This document shows, in pieces, positions 5,942-32,363 of a DNA stretch of 35,210 bases. A program made the translations under genes and the position numbers. Below the pieces are notes generated by a model. That model did not search any database, had not been told where the DNA came from, and saw only the letters and a list, made by a program, of their open reading frames with translations. Positions within the stretch are counted from its first letter, which is position 1. Each line of letters opens with the position of its first letter. The stretch comes from Candidatus Palauibacter australiensis. Lineage in GTDB: Bacteria > Gemmatimonadota > Gemmatimonadetes > Palauibacterales > Palauibacteraceae. Where the stretch lies: NCBI GenBank assembly GCA_026705295.1, contig JAPPBA010000143.1, positions 1-35,210 on the forward strand, given 5' to 3'.

Positions 5942-5953
5942 GTCGTTCCCCTC

Positions 5954-5993: not shown

Positions 5994-5995
5994 GT

Positions 5996-9015: not shown

Positions 9016-9079
9016 GCCGCAACGGCTAACGTCCCGCCTCCCCCCGCCAGCGGAGACGAACGCCTTGCCGACAAGCCCC

Positions 9080-10222: not shown

Positions 10223-11034
10223 CCGAGTTACGCGCGCTCGAGACGCTCGAGGAGTGGCAGACGTGCGTACGGCTCCAGGAGATGACGTGGGGGGAAGGGT
10301 TCTCCGACATTGTTCCCGCTTCCGTCCTCCAGGTCTCGCGCAAGATCGGGGGCTTCGCGGGAGGGGCGTTCGAGGACGGTCGCATGATCGGTTTCGTCTA
10401 TTCCCTGCTGGGGCGGTTCGAGGGTGTCCCGTCGCACTGGTCGCACATGCTGGCCGTCGAACCGTCCGCGCGCGGGCGGGGCCTGGGCCGCGACCTGAAG
10501 CTCTTCCAGCGGGACTCTGTCCGGTTCGACGGCATCCGAACCATCTTCTGGACGTACGACCCGATGGTCGCGCGCAACGCGCACTTGAACCTGAACCGGC
10601 TCGGCGCGACGGTGCTTCGCTACGCACCGAACATGTACGGCGCCGATACGGGGAGCCCCTTGCATGGCGGCGGCGAAACCGACCGGTTCATCGTGCGCTG
10701 GGATCTCGACGGCCCGGAGACGCGCCGGGCCCTCGACGAGGGACCCCGGCGCTCGGCCCGGCGGCTCCATGTGCCGCTTCCGGACCCGGCGTGCGTCGTG
10801 CAACGGCCGGGAGGACGCGGCACGGCGGCCGCCGGACTGCCCGGGGGCGACGAGGTCTTCGTCGAGGTTCCGGCAGATGTCGAATCGCTGCCACCCGATG
10901 GGTCGCTCGAGCGGTGGCGCGAAACGGTGCGGGACGCGTTCCTGGCCTACCTCAGGAGGGGATATGCGGTGGAGAGCCTTGTCAGAAATCCCTCGGCGAA
11001 CCGGTGCTTCTATGTCCTGCGCCGGAGCGCGTGA
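10219..11034 (+). CDS. GNAT-superfamily acyltransferase (COG3375-like)
   Basis: This 271-residue protein has a GNAT fold in its first ~160 residues. A strand HMLAVEPSARGRGLGRDLK (about 76-94) carries the acyl-CoA pyrophosphate loop R-G-x-G-x-G, followed by the TIFWTYDPMVARNAHLNLNRLGA segment. About 110 more residues follow, ending in a second helical/strand segment (AFLAYLRRGYAVESL). This whole-length pattern resembles predicted acyltransferases found beside NSAR/OSBS racemases. In Geobacillus kaustophilus such a GNAT enzyme succinylates D-amino acids for the racemase; the same role here is inferred. GTG 10219 overlaps the racemase stop (GTGA). The S9 peptidase starts one base after its stop. 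Confidence 0.8.
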   Translation: MTELRALETLEEWQTCVRLQEMTWGEGFSDIVPASVLQVSRKIGGFAGGAFEDGRMIGFVYSLLGRFEGVPSHWSHMLAVEPSARGRGLGRDLKLFQRDSVRFDGIRTIFWTYDPMVARNAHLNLNRLGATVLRYAPNMYGADTGSPLHGGGETDRFIVRWDLDGPETRRALDEGPRRSARRLHVPLPDPACVVQRPGGRGTAAAGLPGGDEVFVEVPADVESLPPDGSLERWRETVRDAFLAYLRRGYAVESLVRNPSANRCFYVLRRSA

Positions 11035-11035
11035 C

Positions 11036-17569: not shown

Positions 17570-17816
17570 GCGTTGTCCCCGTTAGCGGCGAGTGTGCTGG
17601 AGGAGGGCTGAGTTTGGCCCCGTGCCGCTGAGGCTGCAACGGTTGGGCCGACGCGACGGGGCCGATCCGGGTCGCGGAAGTAGCCGGCGCCGGGGTGTGT
17701 GGCGGGCGTCACGGTGCCGTAACTTCGTTCGCGCTCCGGGTGCCTCGGAGCCCCGCCTCGCCCCGGATTTCGGCAGCGACCAGAACCCCCGCGAAAGCAA
17801 GGAGACGAAGAGGGAC
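17570..17816. other. Divergent intergenic region between symporter and phosphorylase genes
   Basis: This 247-base gap must hold both promoters. An imperfect palindrome, GTCACGGTGCCGTAAC (17708-17723), could be an operator. A wider inverted repeat pairs GGCCCCGT (17616-17623) with ACGGGGCC (17656-17663), but such repeats arise easily at this GC content. No riboswitch signature was recognised. The frame of the phosphorylase stays open back to 17592, but that sequence has no family resemblance. Confidence 0.35.
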
Positions 17817-19973
17817 GTGGGTCCGGACAACAGGATTCCCGGCAGCCTCGGGCGGCTATGGGAACTCGCCAACGACCTCTCGTGGACGTGGAACCCGGCG
17901 GCCCCTGCCCTCTTCCGGGTCATCGATCCGCCGCACTGGCGCCGTACGCGGCACAACCCCGTGGCGCTGCTGCAGGCGGTCGGGGAAACGCGCTGGCGTG
18001 AACTGGCCGCCGACGGAGCGTTCCTGCGCCGGTACGACGCGGCGTGCCAGGCGCTGGACCGCGTATCGGGCGGCGGGACGGGCGCGGCGTCCACCTGGTT
18101 CGCCCGGAGCCACCCGGAGTTCGCCGAGGGCCCCGTGGCGTACTTCTGCGCCGAATTCGCGTTGCACGAGTCCATCCCGATCTACTCCGGAGGACTCGGC
18201 GTGCTCGCCGGGGACCATCTCAAGGCGGCCTCCGAACTGGGCGTCCCCCTCGTCGGCGTCGGGCTGATGTACGCGCACGGCTACTTTGACCAGACGCTGG
18301 GGCCGGACGGTTGGCAGGAAGATGCGGACGACCCGCTCGACCCCGACCTGACTCCGCTTGAGCGGCTGCAGGGCGCGGATGGCGCACCGTGGCTCGCCTC
18401 GCTCCAGGGCGGGGGGCGCCGCATCCATATCGGGGCCTGGAAGCTGCGCGTCGGCCGCGTCTCCCTGTACCTCCTCGACACGGACCTCGAGGAGAACGAT
18501 CCCGCGGATCGGGGCCTCTCTCACCAGCTCTACGCGGGCGGCGCGGATCACCGCCTGCGGCAGGAGGCGATTCTCGGCGTGGGAGGCGTGCGCGTGCTCG
18601 CCGCACTCGGGATCGAGCCCGGGGCGTGGCACGCGAACGAGGGGCACGCGGCGTTCATGATGGTGGAGCGCGTGCGCCGGCTGATGCGGGACGGCCAATC
18701 CTTCGCGAACGCGGTGTCCCAGATCCGTGCCTCGACGGTGTTCACGACGCATACACCCGTCTCCGCGGGCCACGACGTGTTCTCCCACGCACAGATGCGG
18801 GAATGGATCGGCGAGACGTTCTGGGAAGAGATCCCTCACCGCGACGAGCTGCTGGGGCTCGGGCTCCACCCCGACGACGATGCGCAGGACCGGTTTCACA
18901 TGACGGCGGCGGCGATCCGGCTTTCGCGGCGAGTCAACGGCGTTTCCGCGCGGCACGGTCGCGTGAGCCGTGACATCTGGCGCGGCCTCTGGGGGGACCG
19001 GGCGGCCGGAGAAGTGCCGATCCGGCACGTGACGAACGGGGTCCACCTCGCCACCTGGATGAGCGACGACGTCGCCGGCCTCCTCGACGAATGGCTCCCG
19101 GGCGGGTGGCGGGACGGTTCGGGCGACGAAGCCGTGTGGCGCGCGGTGCGCGACGTTCCCGCGGAGGCGCTGTGGCGCGTGCGGCGCCGGCTGAAGCTCC
19201 GGCTTCTCGATCTGATGCGGGAGGAGGCCCGGCGGCGGTGGCCGGACCATTGGCCGGAATCGGCGCACCTCGCCGGAGCCGGCACGCTCATGAGCCCCGG
19301 ACCGCTCACGATCGGATTCGCGCGGCGCTTCGCCACCTACAAGCGCGCTGACCTCATCTTCCGCGACCGCGACCGCCTCCTCGCGCTGCTCTCCGACCCC
19401 GCCCGTCCCGTGCAGCTGATCTTCGCCGGGAAGGCGCACCCGCGGGACGACGACGGCAAGCGCGTCCTCCAGCGCGTGTACGAGCATACGCGCGATCCGG
19501 AGTTCGAGGGCAGGGTCGCCTTCATCGAGAACTACGGCCTTCATACGGCGCACGGTCTCGTCGAGGGCGTCGACCTGTGGCTCAACCTTCCCCGGGTCCC
19601 GCTGGAGGCGAGCGGGACGAGCGGGATGAAGGCCGCCCTCAACGGTGTCCCCCAGCTCGCGACCGCGGACGGCTGGTGGGAGGAGGGGTTCGAGGGCGAC
19701 AACGGGTGGATCATCCCGCCCGCCCCCGCCACAGCGAGCGAGGAGGAGGTGGACGAGCACGACGCCGAGCACCTCTTCCGGCTCCTGGAGGAGGACGTCG
19801 TCCCGCTCTATTACGATCGACCCGGTGCGGGTGCCGGGGATGACGCTCCGGCGGGCTGGCTCGCCCATGCGCGGCGTGCGATCGAGGTGGCCGGCGCCCG
19901 ATTCACGGCGGGCCGCATGGTGCGGGACTACGCGCGGGACTACTACGTCCCATCGCTGCGCGGGGACGACTGA
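17817..19973 (+). CDS. glgP: Alpha-glucan (glycogen) phosphorylase, GT35, DUF3417 type
   Basis: This 718-residue enzyme cleaves alpha-1,4-glucan with phosphate to glucose 1-phosphate. Residues about 8-60 match the DUF3417 N-terminal segment (LWELANDLSWTWNPAAPALF). The GT35 fold follows: YFCAEFALHESIPIYSGGLG (109-128), GDHLKAASELGVPLVGVGL, WHANEGHAAF (271-280), THTPVSAGHDVF and RFATYKRADL (504-513). The PLP-binding lysine is K605 in SGTSGMKAALNG. It is shorter than the roughly 820-860 residues usual for this type. The start is GTG 17817, where homology begins, with AAGGAG at 17799-17804 and GAGG nearer by; the exact start is not certain. It belongs functionally with the glycogen genes at 28769-35210. 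Confidence 0.92.
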   Translation: MGPDNRIPGSLGRLWELANDLSWTWNPAAPALFRVIDPPHWRRTRHNPVALLQAVGETRWRELAADGAFLRRYDAACQALDRVSGGGTGAASTWFARSHPEFAEGPVAYFCAEFALHESIPIYSGGLGVLAGDHLKAASELGVPLVGVGLMYAHGYFDQTLGPDGWQEDADDPLDPDLTPLERLQGADGAPWLASLQGGGRRIHIGAWKLRVGRVSLYLLDTDLEENDPADRGLSHQLYAGGADHRLRQEAILGVGGVRVLAALGIEPGAWHANEGHAAFMMVERVRRLMRDGQSFANAVSQIRASTVFTTHTPVSAGHDVFSHAQMREWIGETFWEEIPHRDELLGLGLHPDDDAQDRFHMTAAAIRLSRRVNGVSARHGRVSRDIWRGLWGDRAAGEVPIRHVTNGVHLATWMSDDVAGLLDEWLPGGWRDGSGDEAVWRAVRDVPAEALWRVRRRLKLRLLDLMREEARRRWPDHWPESAHLAGAGTLMSPGPLTIGFARRFATYKRADLIFRDRDRLLALLSDPARPVQLIFAGKAHPRDDDGKRVLQRVYEHTRDPEFEGRVAFIENYGLHTAHGLVEGVDLWLNLPRVPLEASGTSGMKAALNGVPQLATADGWWEEGFEGDNGWIIPPAPATASEEEVDEHDAEHLFRLLEEDVVPLYYDRPGAGAGDDAPAGWLAHARRAIEVAGARFTAGRMVRDYARDYYVPSLRGDD

Positions 19974-20748: not shown

Positions 20749-21501
20749 CTACGGAGCCGGAAGCAGCTCGTCGAGGTAGCGGAGGAGCATGTGGCGCCAT
20801 GTGGGCCAGTCGTGGTGCCACTCCTCGCCCCAGTCGTCCACCCGGTTCGGCACGCCCTTCCGCCCCAGGAGCGAGGCCGCGCGCCAGGATTCGCCGATGT
20901 CCTCCGCCCGCCCGCGCCCGGAGGCGAGGAGCACGAAGCGCTCGCGCAACCGGTCGAGCGTCTCGCCCGCGAGTTGAGGCAGATGGTGCACCGGCGAGGC
21001 GCGGTAGAAGTCGCTCGTCGCTCTCGCTTCGGCCCCGGTCTCGTGCTTCAGGAAGCGCTGGAGGTCGTACGTGCCGCTCATGCACACGGCGTGCGAGAAG
21101 GCGTCGGGGAACCGGCACAGCACGGCGAGCGCGTTGAACGCTCCGATCGAGGATCCCGCGACGATGACCTCGATCCCGGGATCGTTGCAGTCCTCCCGGA
21201 TCATGGGGACGAACTCGCGGTAGACGAACTCCTGGAACCGGTCGAGGACCGCCATGCGGTGTTCCGTGGTCCCCTCGCGTCCGAGCATGACGCGGCCCGC
21301 CACGCTGTCGCACGAGTAGACCTTGAGCCGGCCGTCCGCCAGGTAGTCCGCGACCGTGTCGATGACGAGGAAGCGCTCGATCTCCTCGGCGTCTCCTCCG
21401 GCGGTCGGGAACATGAGGAAGGGCACGCCGACCTCGCCCCAGCGCGCCACGTTGACCTCCTGGCCGAGGCGGTCCGACCACCAGCTGGCGTTGAGTTTCA
21501 T
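20749..21501 (-). CDS. Alpha/beta-hydrolase esterase (COG4947-like)
   Basis: This 250-residue putative esterase resembles COG4947/PF00756 proteins. The nucleophile is S118 in AGSSIGAFNA (G-x-S-x-G). A histidine pair, H229-H230 (EEWHHDWPTWRHML), supplies the likely catalytic His. The PTAGGDAEEIERF segment (32-44) fits the oxyanion-hole region. There is no signal peptide, so it is cytoplasmic. ATG 21501 overlaps the stop of the ATP-grasp gene (ATGA). It is the last gene of the five-gene minus-strand operon. Its role there could be hydrolysis or acyl transfer on an ester or amide product; this is inference. Confidence 0.8.
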   Translation of the reverse strand: MKLNASWWSDRLGQEVNVARWGEVGVPFLMFPTAGGDAEEIERFLVIDTVADYLADGRLKVYSCDSVAGRVMLGREGTTEHRMAVLDRFQEFVYREFVPMIREDCNDPGIEVIVAGSSIGAFNALAVLCRFPDAFSHAVCMSGTYDLQRFLKHETGAEARATSDFYRASPVHHLPQLAGETLDRLRERFVLLASGRGRAEDIGESWRAASLLGRKGVPNRVDDWGEEWHHDWPTWRHMLLRYLDELLPAP

Positions 21502-22775
21502 GAGGCGAGCATCGGCACGGCGCCGGGGGGTTCTTCCCGGCGGGCCGCCTGTATGCGGTCGAAGAAGAGCGCGGTGAACTCCTCGACCTCGTGATCGGGG
21601 TAGAGCGAGGCCACCTTCGCGCGCACCGCGTCGCGGGCCGCCTCGCTGCCGAAGAAGTCGTCGGCCACCTCGTCGAGTTCCGCCAGATGCGTCCCGCAGA
21701 ACTCCACGAAGCGGTCGGTCTCGAACCGGGCTTCCGCGACTGCGGCGCAGGCCCGCACCTTCTCTCCCGTCGACATCCCCGGACGGCAGACATCGAAGAA
21801 CGGTTGCCAGTCGAGGTTGACGCGCATCCTGCGCCGCGTCGCCGCGCAGAATAGGGACCAGCGCAGATTCGCCTTGATGAGCCACGGGAAGTGGTAGTGG
21901 AGCGACGTGACCTGCGAATCCGGGCAGGGGTTCGCGAAGTCGATCGGCATCCACCGGCCGCCGCTGCGGAGCACCTCGCACGAGTTGAAGTCCCACCCGA
22001 AGAACGCGTTGATCGTGAGCGTCGTGTCCCGGATCGCGCCGGCGTCGGCGGGCTCGAGGTGGTCTCGCTCGACGGTGTAGCGGTCGTGCGCGGGGGCGCC
22101 GGGGTCGTAAAGGACGGCGCGCGTCTGAGGGCCCAGTCCGATGCAGCGGACGAAACGGTCGTGCTCCACCCCCTGCTGGAGGTGCATCACGAACTTGCCG
22201 CTCTCATCGTAGGCGGTGCCGAGCGCCTCGTCGTCCTCGATCCGCGACACGCCGCGCCAGCCGCCACCGTCGTAGGGCTTCATGAACACCGGATACCCCA
22301 GGTCGTGCGCGACGGCGGGGAGGTCGAAGAGCCGCGCGTAGCGCTTCAGGGTGACCGCCAGATCGTCCTGCGGGTCATAGGACTTGGGCGGGATGAGCCA
22401 CGTCCGCGGCACCGGGAGACCCAGCCTCATCATCGCGCAGTAGGTGGAGTGCTTCTCCATCGACTGGACGCTCCACGGATTGTTGAACACGTAGAGCCCG
22501 TCCATGATCACGGACTTCTTGATCCACTCCCGCGTCGGGAAGTACCAGTGCGTGAGGCGGTCGATGACGACGTCGTACTTCCTCTTCTGCTGCAGGTCGA
22601 AGGGCTCGATCGTGACGTCCTCGACGTGGAACCGGATCGTGCCGTCGTCCGAGGGGATCCGGGGCTTCAGCCGTTCGAGGATCGCGCGGTAGGCGACGGG
22701 CCAGCAGAGGTCCGCCCCGAGCGAGAGGCCGATGCGGCGGGTGACCTCGCGCGCGGACGCCGCCGCGGCCGTCAT
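21498..22775 (-). CDS. ATP-grasp enzyme, divergent type (ligase D)
   Basis: The 425-residue protein has an N-terminal pre-ATP-grasp domain (SLGADLCWPVAYRAIL; YDVVIDRLTHWYF) and an ATP-grasp core. ATP-binding lysines are likely K108 (MEKHST) and K166 (FMKPYDGGGWRGV). Acidic/Asn metal ligands lie in NSCEVL (E267) and IDFANPCPD (D279, N282). The C-terminal region, about 300-420, is helical. It clearly differs from the three roughly 405-residue ligases of the same locus. ATP-grasp enzymes join a carboxylate to an amine or thiol via an acyl phosphate; substrates here are unknown. ATG 22775 overlaps the stop of the upstream esterase (ATGA), and its own stop overlaps the next esterase. Confidence 0.85.
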   Translation of the reverse strand: MTAAAASAREVTRRIGLSLGADLCWPVAYRAILERLKPRIPSDDGTIRFHVEDVTIEPFDLQQKRKYDVVIDRLTHWYFPTREWIKKSVIMDGLYVFNNPWSVQSMEKHSTYCAMMRLGLPVPRTWLIPPKSYDPQDDLAVTLKRYARLFDLPAVAHDLGYPVFMKPYDGGGWRGVSRIEDDEALGTAYDESGKFVMHLQQGVEHDRFVRCIGLGPQTRAVLYDPGAPAHDRYTVERDHLEPADAGAIRDTTLTINAFFGWDFNSCEVLRSGGRWMPIDFANPCPDSQVTSLHYHFPWLIKANLRWSLFCAATRRRMRVNLDWQPFFDVCRPGMSTGEKVRACAAVAEARFETDRFVEFCGTHLAELDEVADDFFGSEAARDAVRAKVASLYPDHEVEEFTALFFDRIQAARREEPPGAVPMLAS

Positions 22776-23968
22776 TCGTAGACCATCCAGAGCGGACCCG
22801 GGAAGAGCCACGACAGGCCCTCGCGCAGGCGGTCCCGCCAGTTCTCCCAGTTGTGGCCGTCGCGCGACTCGACGAAGCGCACGTCCGCGCCGCCGCGACG
22901 GAGGACCGGGATCAGGGCCCGATTCTCCGAGACCAGCGGTTCGTAGACGCCCACCGAGACGAACGCCTTCTCGGCAATGGCGGTGGGAGCCGCCCGGTAC
23001 GCGTTCATCATGTCGACGATGCGGTCGAAGACGGGGCCGCTCTCATGGGCGCCGATGTCCGTGAACAGGAAGGAGCCCGACTGGAGCAGCAGGCGGCCGA
23101 AGCGATCGGGGTACTCGAGCGCGGCGTGGAAGGAGGCGACGGCGCCCAGGCTCGCGCCCATGAGGCCACGCGACCCGAGGTCCGGGAGGAGCGGATAGTC
23201 GCGTTCGAGGCGCGGCAGCAGCTCCTCGGCGACGAACCGCGCGTGCGCCGGATCCGCCGAGTATTCCGAAATCCGGTCGTCCGGGTGCAGGAGTGCGACG
23301 ATCATACGGGGGATCTCGAAGCGATCGATCAGCCGGTCCAGGACCCGTCTCAGGCCGGCGTACTCGACGTAGTCCCCGCCGTCGTGCACGATGAGCAGCG
23401 GGTAGCGCCGGTTGGCGTGGAACTCCGCCGGACGGTACACGGTCACGTGCCGCGCGGACGCGAGCGCCTCGCTCTCGACCGCGAGTTCGTCCATCGCGCC
23501 GGGCCGCACGTCCTCGCTCTCGCGCGCCCAGTCCGGGATCTCGTAGCCCCGGGCCTGCACGACGGAGTTCGCGCCGAACGGATCGCGGGCGCGCTGGGGG
23601 TTCAGCGGATCCTCGATCCACTCCGCGCGGCCGCGGGCGACCACCTCGATCTTGTATTCCACCCGGGACTCGTCGGGGAGCTCGAGCGTGTAGCACCAGA
23701 GATCCGTTCCGTCCAGGCGGCGGAAGGGCGCCGAGGTCTGGAGTCCGTGCACCCAGTGTCGGAGCCGTACGGCGTCGGCATGGCCCCGATACACGAAGGT
23801 GTAGAGCGGAGGCTCGGCGAGGGGGAACTCGTTCGCGTCAAGGAACGCGCCCACCGGATCCATCCCGCCGGAAGCGGACGCGAGCCGTTCCTCGAGCGCC
23901 GCGATCGCGGACGAACGCGGCATGGACGCGTCTTGCCGCTGGACCCGGGCGTGGGGATCGAACCGCAT
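22772..23968 (-). CDS. Enterochelin-esterase-like (Fes-type) alpha/beta hydrolase
   Basis: This 398-residue protein has two parts. Residues about 50-145 resemble the Fes/CBM48-like beta-sandwich (LYTFVYRGHADAVRLRHW, YTLELPDESRVEYKIEV, DPLNPQRARDPFGANSV). Residues about 165-390 form an esterase D-type hydrolase with S273 in GASLGA and H372 in SRDGHNWENW. It resembles COG2382 esterases, some of which hydrolyse siderophore lactones. No siderophore synthesis gene is present here, so that substrate is not supported. No signal peptide was seen, so it is cytoplasmic. ATG 23968 lies 7 bases after the S51 stop; ATG 23923 is an alternative, and neither has a good ribosome-binding site, consistent with coupling. 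Confidence 0.83.
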   Translation of the reverse strand: MRFDPHARVQRQDASMPRSSAIAALEERLASASGGMDPVGAFLDANEFPLAEPPLYTFVYRGHADAVRLRHWVHGLQTSAPFRRLDGTDLWCYTLELPDESRVEYKIEVVARGRAEWIEDPLNPQRARDPFGANSVVQARGYEIPDWARESEDVRPGAMDELAVESEALASARHVTVYRPAEFHANRRYPLLIVHDGGDYVEYAGLRRVLDRLIDRFEIPRMIVALLHPDDRISEYSADPAHARFVAEELLPRLERDYPLLPDLGSRGLMGASLGAVASFHAALEYPDRFGRLLLQSGSFLFTDIGAHESGPVFDRIVDMMNAYRAAPTAIAEKAFVSVGVYEPLVSENRALIPVLRRGGADVRFVESRDGHNWENWRDRLREGLSWLFPGPLWMVYE

Positions 23969-23975
23969 GGCCGGG

Positions 23976-24926
23976 CTACGCCGCCGTACGGAAGGGGACC
24001 CGGCGGCCCGCCGCGTCGAGGCGTTCGAGACCGTCACCGCCGGTCCAGCCGTCTCCGGCGCGGTCGATTCGATGACCCGGGTCGAGAAGGACGCAGGAGT
24101 CCGGGGAGAAGCGGGCCGCGAGCCGCGCTCCCCGGGTGCGATCGTCCAGGGCGAGCCGAGCCGAAGCGTGCGGCAGCGCGACAAGCCCTTCGGCGATCCC
24201 GAGCCCCGCGTCGAAGACTTCGGGATGGCCCGCGCCCCACGGCGGCCGATCGTGAAAGAGCACGACGCGCTCCGTCAGCACCATGGCGCCCGCCGACCGG
24301 CCGATCACGACCCGTCCGCCCAGGAGCTTCCTTCCCCCGAACAGGCGCAGGCGGCTCAGCAGGTTCCCGACGTGCCCGCCCTCCAGCACGATCGCCTCCG
24401 CGCCCTCGAGCCGCGCGTGCACCTCGCGCCGTTGCGATCGCACCGCGTCGCGCTCGGGGGGTGTCAGGCGGTGCTCGAACTCCGACCGGATCTCGAGCAC
24501 CCGGGCCAGGTGCCGGGCGTCGAGGCGCCGAATGGCCGCGAGGGCTTCGCCGCGCTCGGCCCGGAGCACCGACGCGTCCCCCCGCAATTCGGCCAGTCGC
24601 CGGTGCGCCTCGATGAGGCCGTGGAGGCGCAGATTGTAGGCGCGACGCAGCGACCGGAGCCGGTCCCGTGTCTCGCGGTGCGCACGCGCGAGTTCCGCGT
24701 CCGCCTCGGCGATCCGGTCGGAGCGCCGATAGAGTTCGAGATCGACGACGCGGTTGGCGAGGCCTGGATCGATGAGCCCCTCGTTCGCCTCGCGGTCCCG
24801 CCACCCGGCGGTGATGGCGGCGATCCGCGCGCCCGGGGACAGCGCGCCCCCGGCCTCCAGTTCCCGCACCACGTCCCGGAGCGCGAGGCCGCCCCCGCGC
24901 GGACCCAGCAGGACAAGCGCGCTCAT
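23976..24926 (-). CDS. Peptidase S51-like protein with long helical insertion
   Basis: The 316-residue protein has the class I amidotransferase-like fold of S51 peptidases (dipeptidase E, cyanophycinase). LVLLGPRGGG opens the first strand, and RIAAITAGWRD (34-44) follows. VLEGGHVGNLL (180-190) and the nucleophile elbow IGRSAGAMVL (S211) come next, then a possible catalytic His in ALPHASA (H253). Between about 66 and 172 lies a charged, Arg/Leu/Glu-rich helical insertion (coiled-coil-like) not found in standard members of about 230 residues. It may hydrolyse isopeptide or alpha-aspartyl bonds, or act as an amidotransferase-like partner; this is uncertain. ATG 24926 overlaps the stop of ATP-grasp A (ATGA). 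Confidence 0.75.
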   Translation of the reverse strand: MSALVLLGPRGGGLALRDVVRELEAGGALSPGARIAAITAGWRDREANEGLIDPGLANRVVDLELYRRSDRIAEADAELARAHRETRDRLRSLRRAYNLRLHGLIEAHRRLAELRGDASVLRAERGEALAAIRRLDARHLARVLEIRSEFEHRLTPPERDAVRSQRREVHARLEGAEAIVLEGGHVGNLLSRLRLFGGRKLLGGRVVIGRSAGAMVLTERVVLFHDRPPWGAGHPEVFDAGLGIAEGLVALPHASARLALDDRTRGARLAARFSPDSCVLLDPGHRIDRAGDGWTGGDGLERLDAAGRRVPFRTAA

Positions 24927-26146
24927 GCGGCGCGCACTCTCACCCAGCGTCCGACGGCGTCGAGCATGCGGCGCAGTTCGTCGTAGTCCGGGTGCCGCAG
25001 CCGGAGCCAGGCGTTGGCCATGTACCCGGCCTCCACCGGCTGGGTGGGCGTGCCGGGCGGCGGCAGGTGCGTATCGATGATCCACTCCCCGAAGCGGGTT
25101 TCCACCTTCTCCAGGCCCTCGTACCCCGCGATCCGCCCATCGTTTTCGGGCCGCAGCGTCACGATCCCCGCGGAGTAGCGGCGCGACGCGTCTCGCAGTT
25201 TCCGGCCATGCACGATGCAGGACGCCCATTCGCGGTACACGTCCATTTCGTTCGCCGCCCCGTACAGGTCCCAGGCCCGCACGCCGGGCGGGCGGCAGCC
25301 GATCTCGGAGAACTTGAGCCCTTTCTCGCCGAAGAACCATTCCATGTGGGTGGCGGATGTCCCGATCTCGAGCGCGTCGATGACCCGCCGTCCGAGTTCC
25401 CGGACCTCCGCGTAGGCGGAGGCGGTGTCGATCCGGTTCGTGGCGATGAACTGGGGCGACACCTCCCGCGTCCGCATGGCCTCGAGCACGTTCGGGTAGT
25501 AGTGCGTCATGAAATCGTGGACGACCGTGCCGCCCACCGTCAGCGTGTCATAGAAGGCCTCGTGTCCGTCCACGAACTCCTCTACGGCAACTTCGGCGCC
25601 GCGCCCCACGCCGAGGCGCGGGAGCAGTGCCGCGAGCTGTGCCTCATCGTCGACGCGAACCGTGCCCGAGGCGCCCGCCCCCGCGCGAGGCTTGACGATG
25701 AGCGGATAACCGACCCTCCGGCCGAACGCCGCGATCTCGTCCGCGTCGCCTCCGCCCATCGACTGGGCGGTCGCGATCCCCGCATCGCGAAGGGCGTCCT
25801 TCATCGCCGGCTTGTCGCGGCACAGGTGCGCGGTCTTCACGGAGGTCCCGGCCAGTCCCGCGGCTTCCCGCACGCGTGCGACCGGGAGGATGTGGGCTTC
25901 GACCGTGGCCTCGAGGCGGTCCACGGGGCGCCGCCGGTGGATCTCGTGAACGGCGTGCGCGAGCGCGCCCTCATCGCACACCGAGCCGACCTGCTCGTAG
26001 CAGGTGAGCCACCGGTGCAGATCGGAGCCCAGCGCTTCCAGCGGCGCTTCGCCCACCGCGGACACCTCGGCGCCGACTTCGTGCAGACCGCGCACGAAGT
26101 CCTTCTGGTTCCCGGGAAACAGGGGTTCGACGAATACGACGTGCAT
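24923..26146 (-). CDS. ATP-grasp ligase A
   Basis: This 407-residue enzyme has an N-terminal Rossmann-like pre-ATP-grasp domain (HVVFVEPLFPGNQKDFVRGLHEVGAEV). The core has K112/K116 (DKPAMKDAL), K152 (YPLIVKPRAGAGASGT), E189-E190 in the adenine-contact segment, E269 (THMEWF) and E281/R285 (FSEIGCRPPG). This is the layout of biotin-carboxylase-like ATP-grasp ligases, which include L-amino-acid ligases. It is a paralogue of ligases B and C across the divergent promoter, closest to C by the motif spacing. ATG 26146 is preferred because it aligns with the others; ATG 26194 would add 16 residues. It is the first gene of the five-gene minus operon. Substrates unknown. Confidence 0.87.
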   Translation of the reverse strand: MHVVFVEPLFPGNQKDFVRGLHEVGAEVSAVGEAPLEALGSDLHRWLTCYEQVGSVCDEGALAHAVHEIHRRRPVDRLEATVEAHILPVARVREAAGLAGTSVKTAHLCRDKPAMKDALRDAGIATAQSMGGGDADEIAAFGRRVGYPLIVKPRAGAGASGTVRVDDEAQLAALLPRLGVGRGAEVAVEEFVDGHEAFYDTLTVGGTVVHDFMTHYYPNVLEAMRTREVSPQFIATNRIDTASAYAEVRELGRRVIDALEIGTSATHMEWFFGEKGLKFSEIGCRPPGVRAWDLYGAANEMDVYREWASCIVHGRKLRDASRRYSAGIVTLRPENDGRIAGYEGLEKVETRFGEWIIDTHLPPPGTPTQPVEAGYMANAWLRLRHPDYDELRRMLDAVGRWVRVRAA

Positions 26147-26269
26147 TGCTTCGCCAACAACTCGGGGAAAAACTTCACTTTGAGGGCCCGACATAGTACA
26201 GTCCCTGCGCTCGAACGCCAGCCCGTCCGGCGGCGGCCGTCCGGCCCGCCGCTGCAACCCGGAAAACCC
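26147..26269. promoter_or_regulatory. Divergent promoter region of the ATP-grasp locus
   Basis: This 123-base gap separates ligase A (minus) from ligase B (plus). On the minus strand TACTAT (26198-26193) is a fair -10 element, with CTGGCG (26221-26216) a poor -35 at 17 bases. On the plus strand CATAGT (26192-26197) matches -10 at four positions. The two candidates overlap, so one regulator could control both operons. No clear operator was found. Confidence 0.4.
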
Positions 26270-27493
26270 ATGCCCAACGTAGCCTTCGTCGCCCCGTTCT
26301 ATCTCCCTGCCACGCTGCGCTTTCTGGAAGCCGCCGCGGGGCTCGCCGGCGTGCGCCTCGGGGTCGTGACCCAGGAACCGCTCGAGCGAATGCCCGCCTC
26401 CCTGCGGCGGAGGGTCGCGGCGCACGCCCGGGTCGACGACGCGCTGTCGGCGGAGGGCATCCACACCGGGCTGCGCCGGCTCTCCGGCGAACTCGGCGGC
26501 ATCGACCGTCTCCTAGGCGCGCTCGAGGAGCTGCAGGTACCGCTCGGCGAACTGCGAGACGCCCTCGGAATCGAAGGGATGGGCGCGGGGGCGGCGCGCA
26601 ACTTCCGCGACAAGTCCCGCATGAAGGACGTGCTGCGGGCGCACGGCCTGCCCTGCGCCCGGCACGCGCTGGTCCGGGACGAGGCCGAGGCGGTGGCCTT
26701 CGCGGACGCGACGGGCTTCCCGCTCATCGTGAAGCCGCCGGCCGGCTCCGGCGCCCGCGGCACATTCCGCGTCGAAACGACGGCGCAGTTGCGCACGGCG
26801 ATCGCGATGTCGCGGCCGAGCGCCGAGCGGCCGACGCTCATCGAGGAGTTCGTCGTCGGCGAGGAACACTCCTTCGACGCGGTCTCGATCGGCGGACGCG
26901 TCGTCTGGCATTCGATCAACCACTACCTGCCTTCGCCGCTCGAGGTGCTGCGCGAGCCGTGGATCCAGTGGTGCGTCCTCCTTCCGCGGGAGGTCGACTC
27001 GCCCCGGTACGACGAGATCCGGCGCGTCGCCGGACCCGCGCTCGATGCGCTCGGGATGGAGACGGGGCTGAGCCACATGGAGTGGTTCCGGCGGCCCGAC
27101 GGTCCGGTGGCGATCTCCGAAGTCGGGGCCCGGCCGCCCGGCGCACAGTTCGTCACGCTGATCTCGCAGGCGCACGACGTCGACCTTTACCGGGCCTGGG
27201 CCCGCCTCCTGATCTTCGACGAGTTCGACCCGCCGCCCCGCCCGTACGCGGCCGGCGCGGCCTATCTCCGGGGACAGGGCCGGGGCTCCGTGCGGCGGGT
27301 GGCCGGGATCGAGGAGATCGCGAAGGAACTCGGGCCGCTCTGCGTCGAATGGCGCCTTCCCCGCGCGGGACAGCCGCAGAGCGCGTCCTACGAGGGAGAG
27401 GGCTACATCATCGTCCGCCACCCGCGCACCGAGGTCGTCGAGGAGGCGCTGGAGCGGATCATCACCCGCGTGCGGGTGGAACTCGCCACGTGA
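26270..27493 (+). CDS. ATP-grasp ligase B
   Basis: This 407-residue paralogue of ligases A and C has the pre-ATP-grasp domain at 1-105 (VAFVAPFYLPATLRFLEAAAG). The core carries RDKSRMKDVL (113-122), PLIVKPPAGSGARGT with K155, IEEFVVGEEHSFD, SHMEWF with E271 and ISEVGARPPGAQF with E284. A C-terminal module about 315-405 ends in VRHPRTEVVEEALERI. It probably catalyses an ATP-dependent amide bond. The substrate pocket residues differ from A and C (for example, Trp/Gln-rich REPWIQWCVLLP at 229-239), so a different substrate is likely. It starts at ATG 26270 and is the first gene of the plus-strand arm. Confidence 0.87.
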   Translation: MPNVAFVAPFYLPATLRFLEAAAGLAGVRLGVVTQEPLERMPASLRRRVAAHARVDDALSAEGIHTGLRRLSGELGGIDRLLGALEELQVPLGELRDALGIEGMGAGAARNFRDKSRMKDVLRAHGLPCARHALVRDEAEAVAFADATGFPLIVKPPAGSGARGTFRVETTAQLRTAIAMSRPSAERPTLIEEFVVGEEHSFDAVSIGGRVVWHSINHYLPSPLEVLREPWIQWCVLLPREVDSPRYDEIRRVAGPALDALGMETGLSHMEWFRRPDGPVAISEVGARPPGAQFVTLISQAHDVDLYRAWARLLIFDEFDPPPRPYAAGAAYLRGQGRGSVRRVAGIEEIAKELGPLCVEWRLPRAGQPQSASYEGEGYIIVRHPRTEVVEEALERIITRVRVELAT

Positions 27494-27531
27494 CGAAACA
27501 GCTCACACGTAACGGAACAACACAACGGACC

Positions 27532-28749
27532 ATGAACGTATTGATGATTTCGCCGGGCTACCCGGCCGAGATGACCTGGTTCACGCGCGGGCTCGCGGAG
27601 GTAGGAGCGAACGTCATCGGCCTGGGCGATCAGCCCGGGGCGGCGCTGCCCGAGATCGCCCGGGCGAGCGTGTCCGACCACCTGCAGGTGAGATCGCTGG
27701 CCGATGAGGCGGACGTGATGCGGCAGGTTGCCGAGTTCGCCGCGCGAACCCGGATCGATCGCGTGGAGTGCCTGTGGGAGCCCTTCATGATCCTCGCCGC
27801 GCGGCTGCGCGAGATGCTGGAACTGCCGGGGCCGACCGTCGAGCAGACGCTCCCCTTCCGCGACAAGGAAGTGATGAAGGACGTGCTCGACGCCGCCGGG
27901 ATCCGGACGCCCCGCCACGGGAGGGCCACGAGCAACGCCGAGTGCCGCGAGGTCGCGGAGGGCGTCGGCTTCCCCCTCATCGTGAAGCCCGTCGCCGGCG
28001 CCGGCTCGGCCGATACCCACCGGGTCGATTCGGCGCGGGATCTGGAGCGGGTCCTTCCCGCCCTGCGGCACGTCCCCCAGGTCACGGTCGAGGAGTTCAT
28101 CGAGGGCGAGGACATGACCTTCGACACGGTCACGGTCGGAGGCGCCGTGGCGCACTACAACATCTGCCGCTACTGGCCCCGCGCCCTCGAGTCGAAGACG
28201 CACGAGTGGCTCAGCCCCATCACGTACGCGCTGCGCGACGTGGAGGCGGATGATGTCGCCGCCGGACGCGAGATGGGGTTCGCCGTGCTCGCCGCGCTCG
28301 GATTCGAGACCGGCTACACGCACATGGAGTGGTACCGGACCGCGGACGGGGAGGCCGTGTTCGGCGAGATCGCCGCGCGTCCCCCCGGCGTGCGGACGGT
28401 CGACCTCATCAACTTCGCGAGCGACATCGACACCTACCGCGGGTGGGCCGAAGGCGTCGTGCACGCGACGTGGTCGCAGCCGGTGGAACGGAAGTACAAC
28501 GCCTGCTGGATCGTCAAGCGGGCGCGTGGACAAGGCCGGATCCAGCGCATCGAGGGGCTCGGCCCGCTGCTCCAGGAGTACGGCGAGCGGGTGTGCAGCC
28601 TGGATCTGCTCCCGGTCGGATCACCCCGGCGGAACTGGCAGGCGACGCTCGTCTCCGACGGGATGATCTTCCTCCGCCACCCGGACCTGGAGGCGCTGGA
28701 GGCGATCGCCGGCGAGTTCGCGACGCGTCTGCAACTCTACGCGGCTTGA
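27532..28749 (+). CDS. ATP-grasp ligase C
   Basis: This 405-residue paralogue begins NVLMISPGYPAEMTWFTRGLAEVGANVIGLGD, very like the start of ligase A. Core motifs are FRDKEVMKDVLDAAGI, PLIVKPVAGAGSADT with K152, VEEFIEGEDMTFDTV, THMEWY with E266 and GEIAARPPGVR with E279. The spacing of K152, the E266 region and the RPPG motif is within a few residues of ligase A. A conserved C-terminal module follows (AGWAEGVVH region to the end). It lies 38 bases after ligase B on the same strand and converges with glgB. The reaction is likely ATP-dependent carboxylate-amine ligation; substrates are not readable. Confidence 0.87.
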   Translation: MNVLMISPGYPAEMTWFTRGLAEVGANVIGLGDQPGAALPEIARASVSDHLQVRSLADEADVMRQVAEFAARTRIDRVECLWEPFMILAARLREMLELPGPTVEQTLPFRDKEVMKDVLDAAGIRTPRHGRATSNAECREVAEGVGFPLIVKPVAGAGSADTHRVDSARDLERVLPALRHVPQVTVEEFIEGEDMTFDTVTVGGAVAHYNICRYWPRALESKTHEWLSPITYALRDVEADDVAAGREMGFAVLAALGFETGYTHMEWYRTADGEAVFGEIAARPPGVRTVDLINFASDIDTYRGWAEGVVHATWSQPVERKYNACWIVKRARGQGRIQRIEGLGPLLQEYGERVCSLDLLPVGSPRRNWQATLVSDGMIFLRHPDLEALEAIAGEFATRLQLYAA

Positions 28750-28768: not shown

Positions 28769-30775
28769 TCACGGTTCCTCCGCGCGCTGGAGCACGACGA
28801 AAGCCAGCGGCGGGAGATCGACGGCGAGCGAGGCGGGACGCGCGTGGCGGGGGACCTCCTCCGCGCGGATCCGAGGGGCCGTGCGCCCGCTCCCCCCGAA
28901 CTCCGGGTCGCCGCTGTCGAGGAGGACGCGGTACGGCCCGGCTTCGGGAAGGGCGACCCGATACCTGGGCCACGCGGTGGCGGAGAAGTTCGCCACGACG
29001 ACGACGGCCGCCTCCCACTCCGGCCGCCACCGCAGGTAGCTCAGCACGCTGCGCTTCGCGTCGTGCACGTCCAGCCACTCGAAGCCTTCCGGCGCGTGGT
29101 CGAGCGCGTGCAGCGCGGGCTCGCTCGCGTAGAGACGGTTCAGCGCGCGCACCCAGCGCCGGAGCCCGCGGTGCATCCCGTGCGCCGGGTTCGCCGACGC
29201 ATCCGGCAGACTCCAGTCGAGCGCGCCGTCCTCGTGCCATTCCCGCCGCTCTCCGATCTCCCCTCCCATGAACAGGAGTTTGGCCCCGGGGTGCGTCCAC
29301 ATGTAGCCGAGGAGGAGGCGGAGGCCGGCGAACTTCTCCTCGTCCGTCCCCGGCATCTTCTCCAAGAGAGAACGCTTTAGGTGAACGACTTCATCGTGCG
29401 ACAGGGGAAGGAGATGCCGTTCCGTATGCGCGTAGTGAAGCGAGAACGTCAGGCGCCGGTGCAGGCGCGGCCGCCGCTCCGGCGAAGCCGCCAGCACGCG
29501 GAGCGTGTCGTTCATCCATCCCATGTTCCACTTGAAGTCGAACCCGAGCCCGCCCTCGTCCACGGGCGCCGTCACGCCGGGCCACGCGCTGCTCTCCTCC
29601 GCGAAGAGGAGGACGCCGGGGAAGCGGTCATGGACCATCTCCGAGAGCGCCTTGAGGAAGGCGATCGCACCGAGGTTCTCGCGGCCCCCGAGTTCGTTCG
29701 GCTCCCACTCTCCCTCTTCCCGGGAATAGTCGAGGTGGAGCATCGATGCCACCGCATCGACGCGCAGACCGTCCACGTGGTATCGCTCGATCCAGTGGCG
29801 CGCGCTCGAAAGGAGGAAGGAGACGACCTCCGGCCGACTGAAGTCGAAGGCGAGGGTGCCCCAGTCCGGATGAACGGCCCGCGACTCCTCCCCCATCTCG
29901 TAGAGGGGCGCTCCGTCGAACGTCCTCAGGCCGTGGAGGTCGGGGCCGAAGTGGCCCGGCACCCAGTCGAGCACGACGCCCAGCCCAAGGCGGTGCGCCT
30001 CATCCACGAAATGCGCGAAATCCTCCGGAGGCCCGTAGCGGGAGGTGGGGGCGAAGTACCCGACCGTCTGGTAGCCCCAGCTCCCGTCATAGGGGTGTTC
30101 CATGACGGGGAGGAGTTCGATGTGGGTGAAGCCCAGATCGGCGGCATAGGGCAGCAGCTCCCGGGCGAGCGCGCGATACCCGAGCCACGAGCCGTCCGCG
30201 TGCCGACGCCAGGAGCCGGGGTGGACCTCGTAGATGGACATGGGATTGTCGGGGGCCGCGCGGTCCGGGCGAGTCTCGCGCCACTCGGCATCCGTCCATT
30301 CGTACGGGGCGGTCGAGGCGACGCGCGATGCGGTGCCCGGCCGGACTTCGGCGGCGCGCCCGAGCGGATCCGCCTTGTCGACCGCGACGGAGAGCCCGTC
30401 CGGTTCCCCGTCCCCGTCGGTCCCGGAACGCACCTGGAATTTGTACAGGTCTCCCGGCCCGACGCCGGGGAGGAAGCGTTCCCACACGCCGGCATCGCCC
30501 ACCGCGGACATGGGATGGGCCGTTCCGTCCCACGCGTTGAACGAGCCCACGACGCTGACGCTCCGGGCGCGCGGGGCCCACACGGCGAACCGCGTCCCCG
30601 CCTCCCCGCCGCGCTCGCACGGGTGCGCGCCGAGGAGGTCGTGGAGCGCGGACTCCCGTCCCGCGTGGAACGCCTCGAAGTCGGGAGCCTTCAGAGGGAA
30701 CGAAGGATCGCGCGCCGGGGTTTGGAGAGGTCCGGGGGGGCCGCTAGTTTTTTCGTGTTCGATCTGCCACCTCAT
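28769..30775 (-). CDS. glgB: 1,4-alpha-glucan branching enzyme GlgB
   Basis: This 668-residue GH13 enzyme introduces alpha-1,6 branches into glycogen. An N-terminal CBM48-like domain (about 58-150) reads TRFAVWAPRARSVSVVGSFNAWDG. The catalytic barrel has VHPGSWRR, LLPVMEHPYDGSWGYQ (221-236), the nucleophile D340 in DGLRVDAVASML, the acid/base E393 in FAEESSAWPGV and the third carboxylate D461 in LSHDEVVH. A C-terminal beta domain ends the protein. ATG 30775 was chosen because it lies before the PDFEAFHAGRE-x8-LGAHP segment where branching-enzyme homology begins. No good ribosome-binding site is visible, so the true start is uncertain by about 20 residues. It is divergent from glgA. Confidence 0.95.
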   Translation of the reverse strand: MRWQIEHEKTSGPPGPLQTPARDPSFPLKAPDFEAFHAGRESALHDLLGAHPCERGGEAGTRFAVWAPRARSVSVVGSFNAWDGTAHPMSAVGDAGVWERFLPGVGPGDLYKFQVRSGTDGDGEPDGLSVAVDKADPLGRAAEVRPGTASRVASTAPYEWTDAEWRETRPDRAAPDNPMSIYEVHPGSWRRHADGSWLGYRALARELLPYAADLGFTHIELLPVMEHPYDGSWGYQTVGYFAPTSRYGPPEDFAHFVDEAHRLGLGVVLDWVPGHFGPDLHGLRTFDGAPLYEMGEESRAVHPDWGTLAFDFSRPEVVSFLLSSARHWIERYHVDGLRVDAVASMLHLDYSREEGEWEPNELGGRENLGAIAFLKALSEMVHDRFPGVLLFAEESSAWPGVTAPVDEGGLGFDFKWNMGWMNDTLRVLAASPERRPRLHRRLTFSLHYAHTERHLLPLSHDEVVHLKRSLLEKMPGTDEEKFAGLRLLLGYMWTHPGAKLLFMGGEIGERREWHEDGALDWSLPDASANPAHGMHRGLRRWVRALNRLYASEPALHALDHAPEGFEWLDVHDAKRSVLSYLRWRPEWEAAVVVVANFSATAWPRYRVALPEAGPYRVLLDSGDPEFGGSGRTAPRIRAEEVPRHARPASLAVDLPPLAFVVLQRAEEP

Positions 30776-30842
30776 CGCGGCGCGTCCGTCCGGACCGGGC
30801 GCCGTCCCTTGCAGCCACACATACGCCACTTCGCGACGAAGT
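30776..30842. other. Divergent gap between glgB and glgA
   Basis: The gap is only 67 bases. A perfect small inverted repeat, ACTTCG-CGA-CGAAGT (30828-30842), touches the glgA start codon and could affect translation or be an operator half. No convincing promoter boxes were recognised; promoters may overlap the coding ends. Confidence 0.35.
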
Positions 30843-32363
30843 ATGAGCCGCATGCCTGCAATCGCCAAGCCAGCGCCGACACGACCGCGGGCGGGGGTCA
30901 AGCCGCCGGAGGAACTCGCCGTCGTGCATCTCGTCGCCGAGTACTGGCCGTACGCCCGCACGGGCGGCCTCGCGGAGGCGGTGCGCGGCATCGCGACCTT
31001 CCAGGCCGCCCAGGGAACTCCCGTCACGGTCTTCATGCCGCTCTACCGGTCGGTGCGCGAGGCCTTCCCCGACCTTGAGCCGATTGCGGACAGCTTCCGC
31101 GTGCGCGTGGGGCGCCGGGTGGAGGAAGTCCGGATTCTCCAGCACCCCGGCCCGCGCCGGAACCCGCGCGTGCTCTTCGTCGACCACCCCGGGTGCTTCG
31201 ACCGGGAGGGGATCTACGGCGAAGGCGGGGCGGACTACGCGGACAACCCGCTGCGCTTCGCGCTCTACAACCTCGCGGCGCTCCGGATTCTGCCGGAACT
31301 CGCCAACGTGCCCGTCGTCGTCCACGCGCACGACTGGCATGCGGCCCTCGCCCCCGTCTTCCTGCGCACGCGGTTCGCCGGGCGCGAGGCGCACGACCGC
31401 ATGGCGGCCGTCCTCTCGATCCACAACGCGGGCTACCAGGGACTTCAGGGGCCCGAGGTGCTGGAGGAGATCGGGCTGCCGCGCGAGCTGTTCCACTGGC
31501 GGCTCATGGAGTTCTACGGCCACCTGAACCTGCTCAAGGGCGGCCTCGTGTTCGCGGACTACGCGACGACCGTGAGTCCCACGCACGCGCACGAGCTTCG
31601 CACGGCCGACGGCGGGTTCGGTCTCCACGGCTCGTTCATCGAGATGGGCGACCGCTTTCTCGGGATTCTGAACGGCGTCGACCTGGAGGTATGGGATCCC
31701 GGGACGGACCCGGAGATCGCCGCCACGTTCTCGAGCGAAGACCTGGCCGGGAAGGCCGTGTGCAAGCGGGCGCTGCAGCGGGAGTACTCGCTGACCGAGG
31801 CGCCGGGCGTACCGCTGTACGGCATGACGGCGCGGCTCGTCGCGCAGAAGGGGCTCGACCTCCTCATCGACGGCGGGCCGCTGGAGCGGGCCGAAGGGCA
31901 GTTCATCTTTCTCGGCCAGGGTGAGGAGCGGTACGAAACAGCGCTGCGCGAGTTGGCCGGGCGGTACCCGGACCGGATCGCCGTGGACACCGAGTTCGCC
32001 GAAGCCAAGGAGCACCGGCTCCTGGCGGGCATCGACCTCCTCCTGATGCCGTCGCTCTACGAACCGTGCGGTCTCACGCAGATGCGGGCGCAGCTCTACG
32101 GCGTGCTCCCGGTCGCCCGGCGCGTCGGGGGGCTGGCCGACACCATCGAGGACCAGGTCACGGGCTTCCTGTTCGACGGCTACACGCCGGAAGATCTGGA
32201 GATCGCGCTCGGGCGGGCCGCCGCGCTGTATGCGGGGAGCCGGGAGGCATGGAACGAGCATGCCGTGCAGGCGATGACCCGCGACTTCGGCTGGGCGAGC
32301 AGCGCCGGCCGCTATCTGGACGTGTACCGGCGGGCGCTCGCCGCGCACGCCCCGGGCGACTGA
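30843..32363 (+). CDS. glgA: Glycogen synthase GlgA (GT5)
   Basis: This 506-residue GT5 enzyme extends alpha-1,4-glucan from ADP-glucose (or UDP-glucose). N-terminal motif: AEYWPYARTGGLAEAV (32-47); the family's KTGGL lysine is Arg39 here. Other hallmarks are HAHDWHAALAP (161-171), SIHNAGYQG (192-200), the LNGVDLEVWDP segment (276-286), RLVAQKGLDLL (331-341) and SLYEPCGLTQM with E407. ATG 30843 and ATG 30852 are both possible; the first was used. The gene starts 67 bases from divergent glgB, and a GH57 gene follows 14 bases after its stop. Bacterial GlgA lysine (K15 in E. coli) contacts the nucleotide-sugar phosphate, so the conservative Arg is worth noting. Confidence 0.92.
   Translation: MSRMPAIAKPAPTRPRAGVKPPEELAVVHLVAEYWPYARTGGLAEAVRGIATFQAAQGTPVTVFMPLYRSVREAFPDLEPIADSFRVRVGRRVEEVRILQHPGPRRNPRVLFVDHPGCFDREGIYGEGGADYADNPLRFALYNLAALRILPELANVPVVVHAHDWHAALAPVFLRTRFAGREAHDRMAAVLSIHNAGYQGLQGPEVLEEIGLPRELFHWRLMEFYGHLNLLKGGLVFADYATTVSPTHAHELRTADGGFGLHGSFIEMGDRFLGILNGVDLEVWDPGTDPEIAATFSSEDLAGKAVCKRALQREYSLTEAPGVPLYGMTARLVAQKGLDLLIDGGPLERAEGQFIFLGQGEERYETALRELAGRYPDRIAVDTEFAEAKEHRLLAGIDLLLMPSLYEPCGLTQMRAQLYGVLPVARRVGGLADTIEDQVTGFLFDGYTPEDLEIALGRAAALYAGSREAWNEHAVQAMTRDFGWASSAGRYLDVYRRALAAHAPGD

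Follow-up and report, generated by a model that had tools for sequence, protein, structure and literature searches.

Bacterial glycogen metabolism is regarded as the work of a short list of well-known enzymes, and decoration of glycogen with amino acids or peptides is, to our knowledge, not a known modification in bacteria. Among ATP-grasp enzymes, RimK glutamylates ribosomal protein S6, while LysX and ArgX are carrier-protein ligases. Cyanophycinase mobilises cyanophycin, the esterase family PF00756 also includes sugar acyl-transferases such as antigen 85, and CBS domains have a general role in adenine-nucleotide control. Iyer et al. 2009 reportedly surveyed the gene neighbourhoods of amidoligases (ATP-grasp, GCS2, FGase), and these neighbourhoods reportedly have the same building blocks as the gene set described here, namely ATP-grasp and GCS2 ligases with amidohydrolases; neither a coupling to glycogen synthase nor paired esterases are known to feature in that survey.

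The present locus suggests that amino-acid chemistry and bacterial glycogen are connected in a way not described before. An initial annotation, made from the DNA alone, had recognised no described pathway in it, and the literature agrees: no paper was found that joins ATP-grasp ligases with glgA, none that combines ATP-grasp, glycogen synthase and enterochelin esterase, and none on this cluster. The paper on Palauibacterales genomes mentions neither glycogen nor ATP-grasp (PMC10469786).

Results

The island is encoded by Candidatus Palauibacter australiensis, a sponge-associated bacterium, at positions 20749-28749 of the window (the whole stretch of DNA analysed, 35,210 nucleotides), and consists of seven genes in two divergent arms. 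The minus-strand arm encodes ligase A (24923..26146, 407 aa), an ATP-grasp protein resembling L-amino-acid ligases (PF02222); an S51-like protein interrupted by a long helical hairpin (23976..24926, 316 aa), assigned by PF03575 and its AlphaFold fold; F, a Fes-like serine esterase whose N-terminal domain is of the enterochelin-esterase type (22772..23968, 398 aa; PF00756 at 82.5 bits, PF11806 weakly); ligase D, a divergent ATP-grasp of RimK/LysX/Ddl type that carries an additional helical domain at its C-terminus, assigned by predicted structure (21498..22775, 425 aa); and E, a COG4947-like second alpha/beta-hydrolase esterase (20749..21501, 250 aa; PF00756 at 33.5 bits). The plus-strand arm encodes two ATP-grasp paralogues of A, ligase B (26270..27493, 407 aa; PF02222 at 42.9 bits) and ligase C (27532..28749, 405 aa; PF18130 and PF02222), both placed also by paralogy and by an alignment of the three. 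The seven genes, their positions and the two-arm layout given initially were confirmed from the coordinates, as were ATGA overlaps at three of the four minus-arm junctions (A/S51, F/D and D/E); a 7-base gap separates S51 from F. An alternative GTG start for ligase C at 27490 would overlap the stop of B. The divergent region shared by A and B (26147..26269) is, by its spacing, exactly the 123 bases first given, and the failure to find a sigma-70-like promoter in it says little in Gemmatimonadota. GC3 lies between 0.87 and 0.93 in all seven genes, which fits real genes at the local G+C.

On either side of the island are genes of glycogen metabolism. An alpha-glucan phosphorylase, functionally linked, is encoded at 17592..19973 on the plus strand (TIGR02094, 743 bits against a cut-off of 192) and adjoins the island in most Palauibacter relatives as well. 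At the other end, the stop codon of C is 19 bases from that of the glycogen branching enzyme GlgB (28769..31036, minus strand; NF003811, 848 bits, above cut-off), followed by the ADP-glucose glycogen synthase GlgA (TIGR02095, 465 bits, above cut-off), whose open reading frame extends over 30234..32363 on the plus strand, its homologous part beginning near 30918. This GlgA is the only GT5 found in its genome (one PF08323 match).

The initial annotation had counted four ATP-grasp ligases, and all four stand: A, B and C have ATP-grasp domains above the Pfam cut-off, and D is recognised through its predicted structure. A, B and C are mutual paralogues with 31-37% identity. By profile comparison they are closest to L-amino-acid ligases, the best match being structure 4wd3 (E 6e-37), then 3vot and 30vh, and they retain an ATP-grasp core with its ATP/Mg residues intact: K112, K152, E190, E269, E281 and R285 of ligase A are invariant among 44 sequences, and ATP-grasp positions are common to A, B and C in the alignment of the three. 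With the described L-amino acid ligases (RizA-type 4wd3, BL00235 3vot, BacD 3wnz) they have in common an ATP-grasp architecture that spans most of the protein, and the conserved catalytic Lys, Glu and Arg; unlike them, they are about 400 aa long, form a set of three paralogues, and are linked to glgA. They are also far below the BacD equivalog cut-off (31 bits against 850), and no LAL-specific C-terminal domain is among their Pfam matches.

No Pfam family matches ligase D itself. The best structural matches to its predicted model are RimK, ArgX/LysX and Ddl (E about 1e-9), and on this model D is a RimK/LysX/Ddl-like ATP-grasp enzyme, sharing with that family both the fold and the K, K, E, D, N residues of the ATP-grasp site (K108, K166, E267, D279 and N282, invariant in 72 sequences). 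Unlike RimK, LysX, ArgX and D-Ala-D-Ala ligase, however, it has an extra C-terminal helical domain and no carrier protein nearby, and it falls below the cut-off of every family (24 against 143 bits for rimK_fam, 27 against 276 for LysX).

The S51-like protein had been called an S51 peptidase and taken for an amide or isopeptide hydrolase, a description that suits the island copy better than its family. The gene narrowly passes PF03575 (27.3 against 23.9 bits), and its AlphaFold model (pLDDT 92) matches the fold of peptidase E and cyanophycinase with E 3.5e-6. The Palauibacter copy keeps Ser211-Asp226-His253, as do peptidase E and cyanophycinase, but Ser is kept in 49 of 54 family members and His in only 17, the same 17 of 54 having the full triad; His is absent from the other 37. 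Judged by these residues, the peptidase label overstates what can be said of the family as a whole. Also unlike peptidase E and cyanophycinase, the family has a large helical insertion, and its invariant residues Tyr97, Arg100, Asp136 and His139 cluster there. Models for cyanophycin synthetase CphA give at most 43 bits at the locus against cut-offs of 850 and more.

Both proposed esterases, F and E, exceed the PF00756 cut-off. F matches the Fes structure 2b20 with E 3e-25, and S273, E343, D370 and H372 are invariant in 66 sequences. It has the same domain order and Ser-His catalytic motif as Fes and the CE1 esterases with N-terminal E-set/CBM48 domains (2b20, 7b5v), and its PDB matches include CE1-CBM48 proteins, mainly through the esterase domain. 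In contrast to Fes, F scores below the equivalog cut-off (115.9 bits against 222) and has no enterobactin genes around it. A search of F for a glucan-binding domain gave no convincing profile match, either to the CBM48 region of GlgB (hhalign probability 6%) or to GlgX. E, with S118, H230 and E200 invariant in 58 sequences, has no PDB relative by sequence; a profile match to the esterase domain of F (probability 96.6%) indicates that the two are homologous.

Relatives of ligase D are encoded at 212 loci, and the best 80 of these, with about 59-97% identity, come from many phyla and have conserved neighbours. Conservation of the gene set extends, well beyond chance, over at least six major bacterial groups (Gemmatimonadota, Eisenbacteria, Myxococcota, Gammaproteobacteria, Planctomycetota and Acidobacteriota), and the catalytic residues tested in A, D, F and E are invariant across relatives. 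D and A/B/C are almost always found together (56 of 60 genomes), and the distances among D, E, S51, A, B, C and GlgA correlate, with r about 0.8. Loss of synteny in relatives, named at the outset as a result that would speak against one system, was not seen; synteny is kept both in relatives and at much greater distance. Other phyla have a larger locus, with an added PGM1/BesA-type ligase, an added GCS2 ligase fused to two CBS domains, and hydrolases resembling N-formylglutamate amidohydrolase (FGase-like) and AstE/AspA. The Palauibacter genome itself has one stand-alone YbdK-type GCS2 gene, on another contig and outside the island.

The locus had been read as a stand-alone pathway, and this reading missed the strongest property of the locus, the linkage to glycogen: in six groups, the cluster contains or adjoins glgA, glgB, glgC, phosphorylase or glgX. 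Both synthesis and breakdown of glycogen are represented among these linked enzymes. Ligase A directly adjoins glgA, in the same orientation, in 30 of the 47 A-bearing loci of other phyla. In Myxococcota and Gammaproteobacteria the order is GlgA-A; in Planctomycetota and an acidobacterium A-GlgA is transcribed divergently from B-C; and in Gemmatimonadota and Eisenbacteria glgB adjoins C. The linkage has thus persisted while gene order changed from phylum to phylum. In many genomes the linked GlgA is the sole GT5 and thus the housekeeping glycogen synthase. Within one phylum a GT5 is present in 59 of 60 D-positive genomes against 74 of 129 D-negative genomes (p = 3e-10, a statistic inflated by relatedness of the genomes by descent). 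The gene set almost never occurs without glycogen synthase, and the dependence is one-way. In the host genus (17 genomes), GlgA is found in 14 of 14 D-positive genomes and is absent from 3 of 3 D-negative ones, a co-loss that could be a single deletion of the linked block.

Discussion

The island probably functions in glycogen metabolism in some way. What it does there is a more tentative matter, and the reading we prefer, with some reserve, is a conserved accessory pathway that both forms and cleaves an amino-acid or peptide conjugate tied to glycogen or its maltodextrin precursors. As first annotated, the enzymes look like amide-forming ligases and ester hydrolases, and the active sites of A, D, F and E are intact. 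By the chemistry of their family, A, B and C would use ATP to convert carboxylates to acyl phosphates and then join amino acids; D might add a further residue or cap the product. Gene linkage and one-way dependence suggest that this product is attached to the alpha-glucan of GlgA through an ester or amide link, or is used with it. F and E may transfer or remove an ester-linked group, and the S51-like protein may be a hydrolase or a binding subunit. The adjacency of A and glgA, the linkage kept through rearrangement, the sole GT5, the one-way dependence, the co-occurrence of D with A/B/C, the correlated gene distances and the intact active sites all argue for such a conjugate. Against it stand the profile comparisons of F, with no glucan-binding domain found, and a few loci: in two alphaproteobacteria (L063, L083) F-D-E does not adjoin glgA, one of the two being without A/B/C, and in Mor1 (L067, L095) D-F-S51 and GlgA-A-B-C are far apart within one genome. 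The linkage could also reflect shared regulation rather than chemistry. The narrower version, in which glycogen or a maltodextrin primer carries, in several bacterial phyla, a covalent decoration of amino acids or short peptides that the four ATP-grasp ligases make and the two esterases edit, we consider rather unlikely.

Somewhat doubtful, but to be taken seriously, is the idea that the island makes a free peptide or amino-acid polymer, in parallel to glycogen and co-regulated with it, to store nitrogen or carbon or to act as a compatible solute. The S51, FGase-like and AstE/AspA-like hydrolases would then mobilise this product in the fashion of cyanophycinase. Three amino-acid ligases, an S51 fold nearest to peptidase E and cyanophycinase, the presence in other phyla of hydrolases that act on acylated amino acids, the linkage of both glycogen synthesis and breakdown enzymes, and the GCS2 ligase with two CBS domains, suggestive of adenine-nucleotide (energy-state) control, are all consistent with it. 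A parallel reserve would be expected also in genomes without glycogen, yet D is almost never found there; the S51 catalytic His is absent in 37 of 54; and two invariant esterases are left without a role. Should the island act on glycogen, it would be a new layer of modification or priming, not looked for so far; should it make a separate peptide, that peptide would be a widespread metabolite with a glycogen-dependent synthesis. Cultured hosts would allow a direct test of either.

Addition of amino acids by the ligases to GlgA or another protein of glycogen metabolism, with reversal by the hydrolases, is improbable: D is indeed most like RimK and the carrier-protein ligases LysX/ArgX, and the linkage to a single enzyme, GlgA, is strong, but A, B and C resemble ligases of free amino acids, the compact clusters have no conserved small protein that could serve as carrier or target, and an amide tag would not call for esterases. 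Least probable is an ordinary secondary-metabolite or siderophore-type cluster lying by accident beside glycogen genes, as might be supposed from the closeness of F to enterochelin esterase, the BacD match and the role of ATP-grasp ligases in making dipeptide antibiotics such as bacilysin, since NRPS, transporter and receptor genes were not seen in the cluster, the glycogen linkage recurs in six groups with different gene orders, gene distances track each other, unlike those of a mobile metabolite cluster, no plasmid copy was found, and many genomes have no glycogen synthase other than the linked one.

The initial annotation had seen no NRPS, PKS, transporter or precursor peptide. No NRPS or transporter gene was seen in the cluster here either, and a RiPP-type precursor is rejected because genes in the compact clusters of other phyla (L081) overlap or nearly abut, with almost no space for one. 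Transfer by plasmids was likewise rejected, with no D relative among 72,556 plasmids, as was a known anti-phage defence system, with no PADLOC match. In L056, the long open frame considered as an F-D gene fusion lies, on inspection of the coordinates, in another phase, and the fusion is rejected.

Conservation and gene layout of the island

The window spans the full length of contig C143 (35,210 bases), part of a 3.58 Mb draft genome. Its nearest relatives are MAGs of "Candidatus Palauibacter" (Gemmatimonadota), in which ligase D is 97% identical. Coordinate checks bore out the gene positions, gene overlaps and 123-base divergent gap of the initial annotation: ligase A (24923-26146), the S51-like protein (23976-24926), esterase F (22772-23968), ligase D (21498-22775) and esterase E (20749-21501) on the minus strand, and ligases B (26270-27493) and C (27532-28749) on the plus strand.

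Conserved co-occurrence of the seven families in other genomes, the check proposed there, was found both in relatives and in other phyla. A total of 212 loci with ligase D were found, and synteny was read from the best 80 of these; the resulting counts are lower bounds, as many loci run off contig ends. The genes for the S51-like protein, F and D are contiguous and in the same orientation in at least 56 of the 72 loci outside the Palauibacter group (L012-L083). Another gemmatimonadote (L030) and Eisenbacteria (L014, L028) carry the full seven-gene set with order and orientation unchanged, and Myxococcota (L018, L046), Woeseiaceae-type Gammaproteobacteria (L042, L070, L071) and Planctomycetota (L034, L035, L041) carry it in rearranged form. 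Pairwise distances for D correlate with those for E, the S51-like protein, A, B, C and GlgA (r 0.80-0.83); for F the correlation is weaker (r 0.58). Every value exceeds 299 permutations. These correlations are consistent with a unit inherited together; common descent and functional coupling both fit.

Linkage to glycogen synthase

Genes for alpha-glucan phosphorylase (17592-19973), GlgB (28769-31036) and GlgA (open reading frame 30234-32363), all scoring above NCBIfam cut-offs, flank the island. Of the 47 loci in other genomes that contain ligase A, 30 have it immediately next to a co-oriented glgA; we estimate the chance expectation for such adjacency at well below 1%, given one or two genes of the glycogen synthase family (GT5) per genome. 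Genes for glgC, phosphorylase, glgX and GH57 are likewise present in clusters elsewhere. In the acidobacterium Mor1 D-F-S51 is separated, while A remains with glgA and B-C (L095), as it does at L096, L097 and L098. The in-cluster GlgA is the sole GT5 protein in many genomes, and is therefore the cell's own glycogen synthase rather than a spare glycosyltransferase. A sodium:alanine symporter gene (15872-17569, minus strand) adjoins the phosphorylase gene; in the other phyla it was not seen to be a conserved neighbour.

Among 189 genomes from the phylum of the myxococcal locus L046, ligase D (E <1e-40) is present in 60. GT5 occurs in 59 of these 60 versus 74 of the 129 D-negative genomes (Fisher p = 2.9e-10, uncorrected for shared ancestry), and the D of the one exception is only a fragment. 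Ligases of the A/B/C type (E <1e-100) also occur in 60 of the 189, and 56 of these genomes have D as well; in the remaining four D-positive genomes the D-like matches are only weak. Within the window's genus, GlgA is found in 14/14 genomes with D and is absent from 3/3 without it, a pattern that may reflect one or a few block deletions; outside the genus, GlgA is frequent without D. Dependence thus runs in one direction only: glycogen synthase is required by the island, but does not itself require the island.

Ligases and esterases

The three ligases A, B and C are ATP-grasp paralogues. The top matches of their joint profile are L-amino acid ligases, 4wd3 (E 6e-37) followed by 3vot and 30vh, with BacD ranked lower. 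For the window copy of D a Pfam search returned no match; 15 of 31 relatives weakly match Dala_Dala_lig_C. The AlphaFold model of D (pLDDT 83.5) matches RimK, ArgX/LysX and Ddl, from which it differs by an extra C-terminal helical region. Esterase F belongs to PF00756 and has enterochelin esterase and CE1 esterases as relatives. The other PF00756 esterase, E, is homologous by profile comparison to F's catalytic domain (probability 96.6%); a sequence search of PDB gave no relative of E.

Residues K112, K152, E190, E269, E281 and R285 of ligase A are present in 44/44 sequences, and the invariant columns of the A/B/C alignment (A5) are common to all three ligases. Equally constant are K108, K166, E267, D279 and N282 of D (72/72), S273, E343, D370 and H372 of F (66/66) and S118, E200 and H230 of E (58/58). 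By these residues, the island ligases and esterases are intact. One ligase A copy (L104, G058:C102:29600-30811, labelled Microvirga soli) has an in-frame TGA, possibly a sign of decay; its genome lacks B and C.

The S51-like protein

This protein has the peptidase E / cyanophycinase fold (AlphaFold pLDDT 92; Foldseek E 3.5e-6), from which it differs by an inserted long helical hairpin. The initial annotation called it an S51 peptidase. The fold agrees, as do Ser211, Asp226 and His253 in the window copy, but the triad is not kept family-wide: Ser occurs in 49 and His in 17 of 54 aligned members, and Ser-Asp-His is complete in only 17. Tyr97, Arg100, Asp136 and His139 (window numbering, alignment A4) are invariant, and lie on the inserted hairpin outside the S51 active site. 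This sequence pattern suggests a conserved site in the family, possibly a new one, other than the classical triad; peptidase activity cannot be taken for granted.

Proposed function

The four ATP-grasp ligases and the two serine esterases keep their active sites intact and form a conserved set linked to glycogen synthase. Ligases A-C would join amino acids, D might add a residue or cap the product, which would be attached to, or used with, alpha-glucan, and F and E might transfer or remove an ester-linked group. Nearly as likely is a reserve or solute peptide made in parallel and co-regulated with glycogen. Counting against a glucan-linked product, profile comparison found no glucan-binding domain, and alphaproteobacterial versions of the island (L063, L083) do not adjoin glgA. 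We prefer the glucan-linked product over the parallel peptide mainly because of the one-way dependence on glycogen synthase.

Among 5.39 million papers, our literature search found none combining ATP-grasp with glgA, and other searches on the cluster were likewise empty. Iyer and colleagues reportedly surveyed amidoligase neighbourhoods in 2009 and could have covered parts of the island. We rate it as an amidoligase island, a known kind, whose coupling to glycogen is unreported.

Additional genes in islands and window

In Myxococcota and Eisenbacteria the island also includes a GCS2-family ligase that carries two fused CBS domains, possibly placing an amide ligase under energy-state control. 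Upstream of glgA, Myxococcota islands have an N-formylglutamate-amidohydrolase-like gene as well. An AstE/AspA-like deacylase gene is present in some islands, and several Gammaproteobacteria and L030 have a ligase of the PGM1 type that comes closest to BesA without reaching the BesA cut-off. The added genes all encode enzymes making or breaking amino-acid amide bonds. The GCS2-CBS fusion, exemplified by L046:11946-14075 (plus strand), recurs in myxobacterial islands. Away from the island, contig C65 of the window's own genome (L094) encodes a stand-alone YbdK-type GCS2 ligase (about 1255-2535, minus strand), adjoining a class-III aminotransferase gene.

Elsewhere in the window, a 2203-residue open frame (2348-8959, plus strand) has DUF5916 and CBM9-like matches confined to its C-terminal half, with no Pfam match in the N-terminal 1300 residues. 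An enolase-superfamily gene (MR_MLE, dipeptide-epimerase-like) followed by an S9 prolyl-oligopeptidase-type gene (9014-13162, plus strand) looks like a pair for peptide or dipeptide utilisation. A single frame at 318-2441 (minus strand) combines homocysteine S-methyltransferase and methylenetetrahydrofolate reductase domains.
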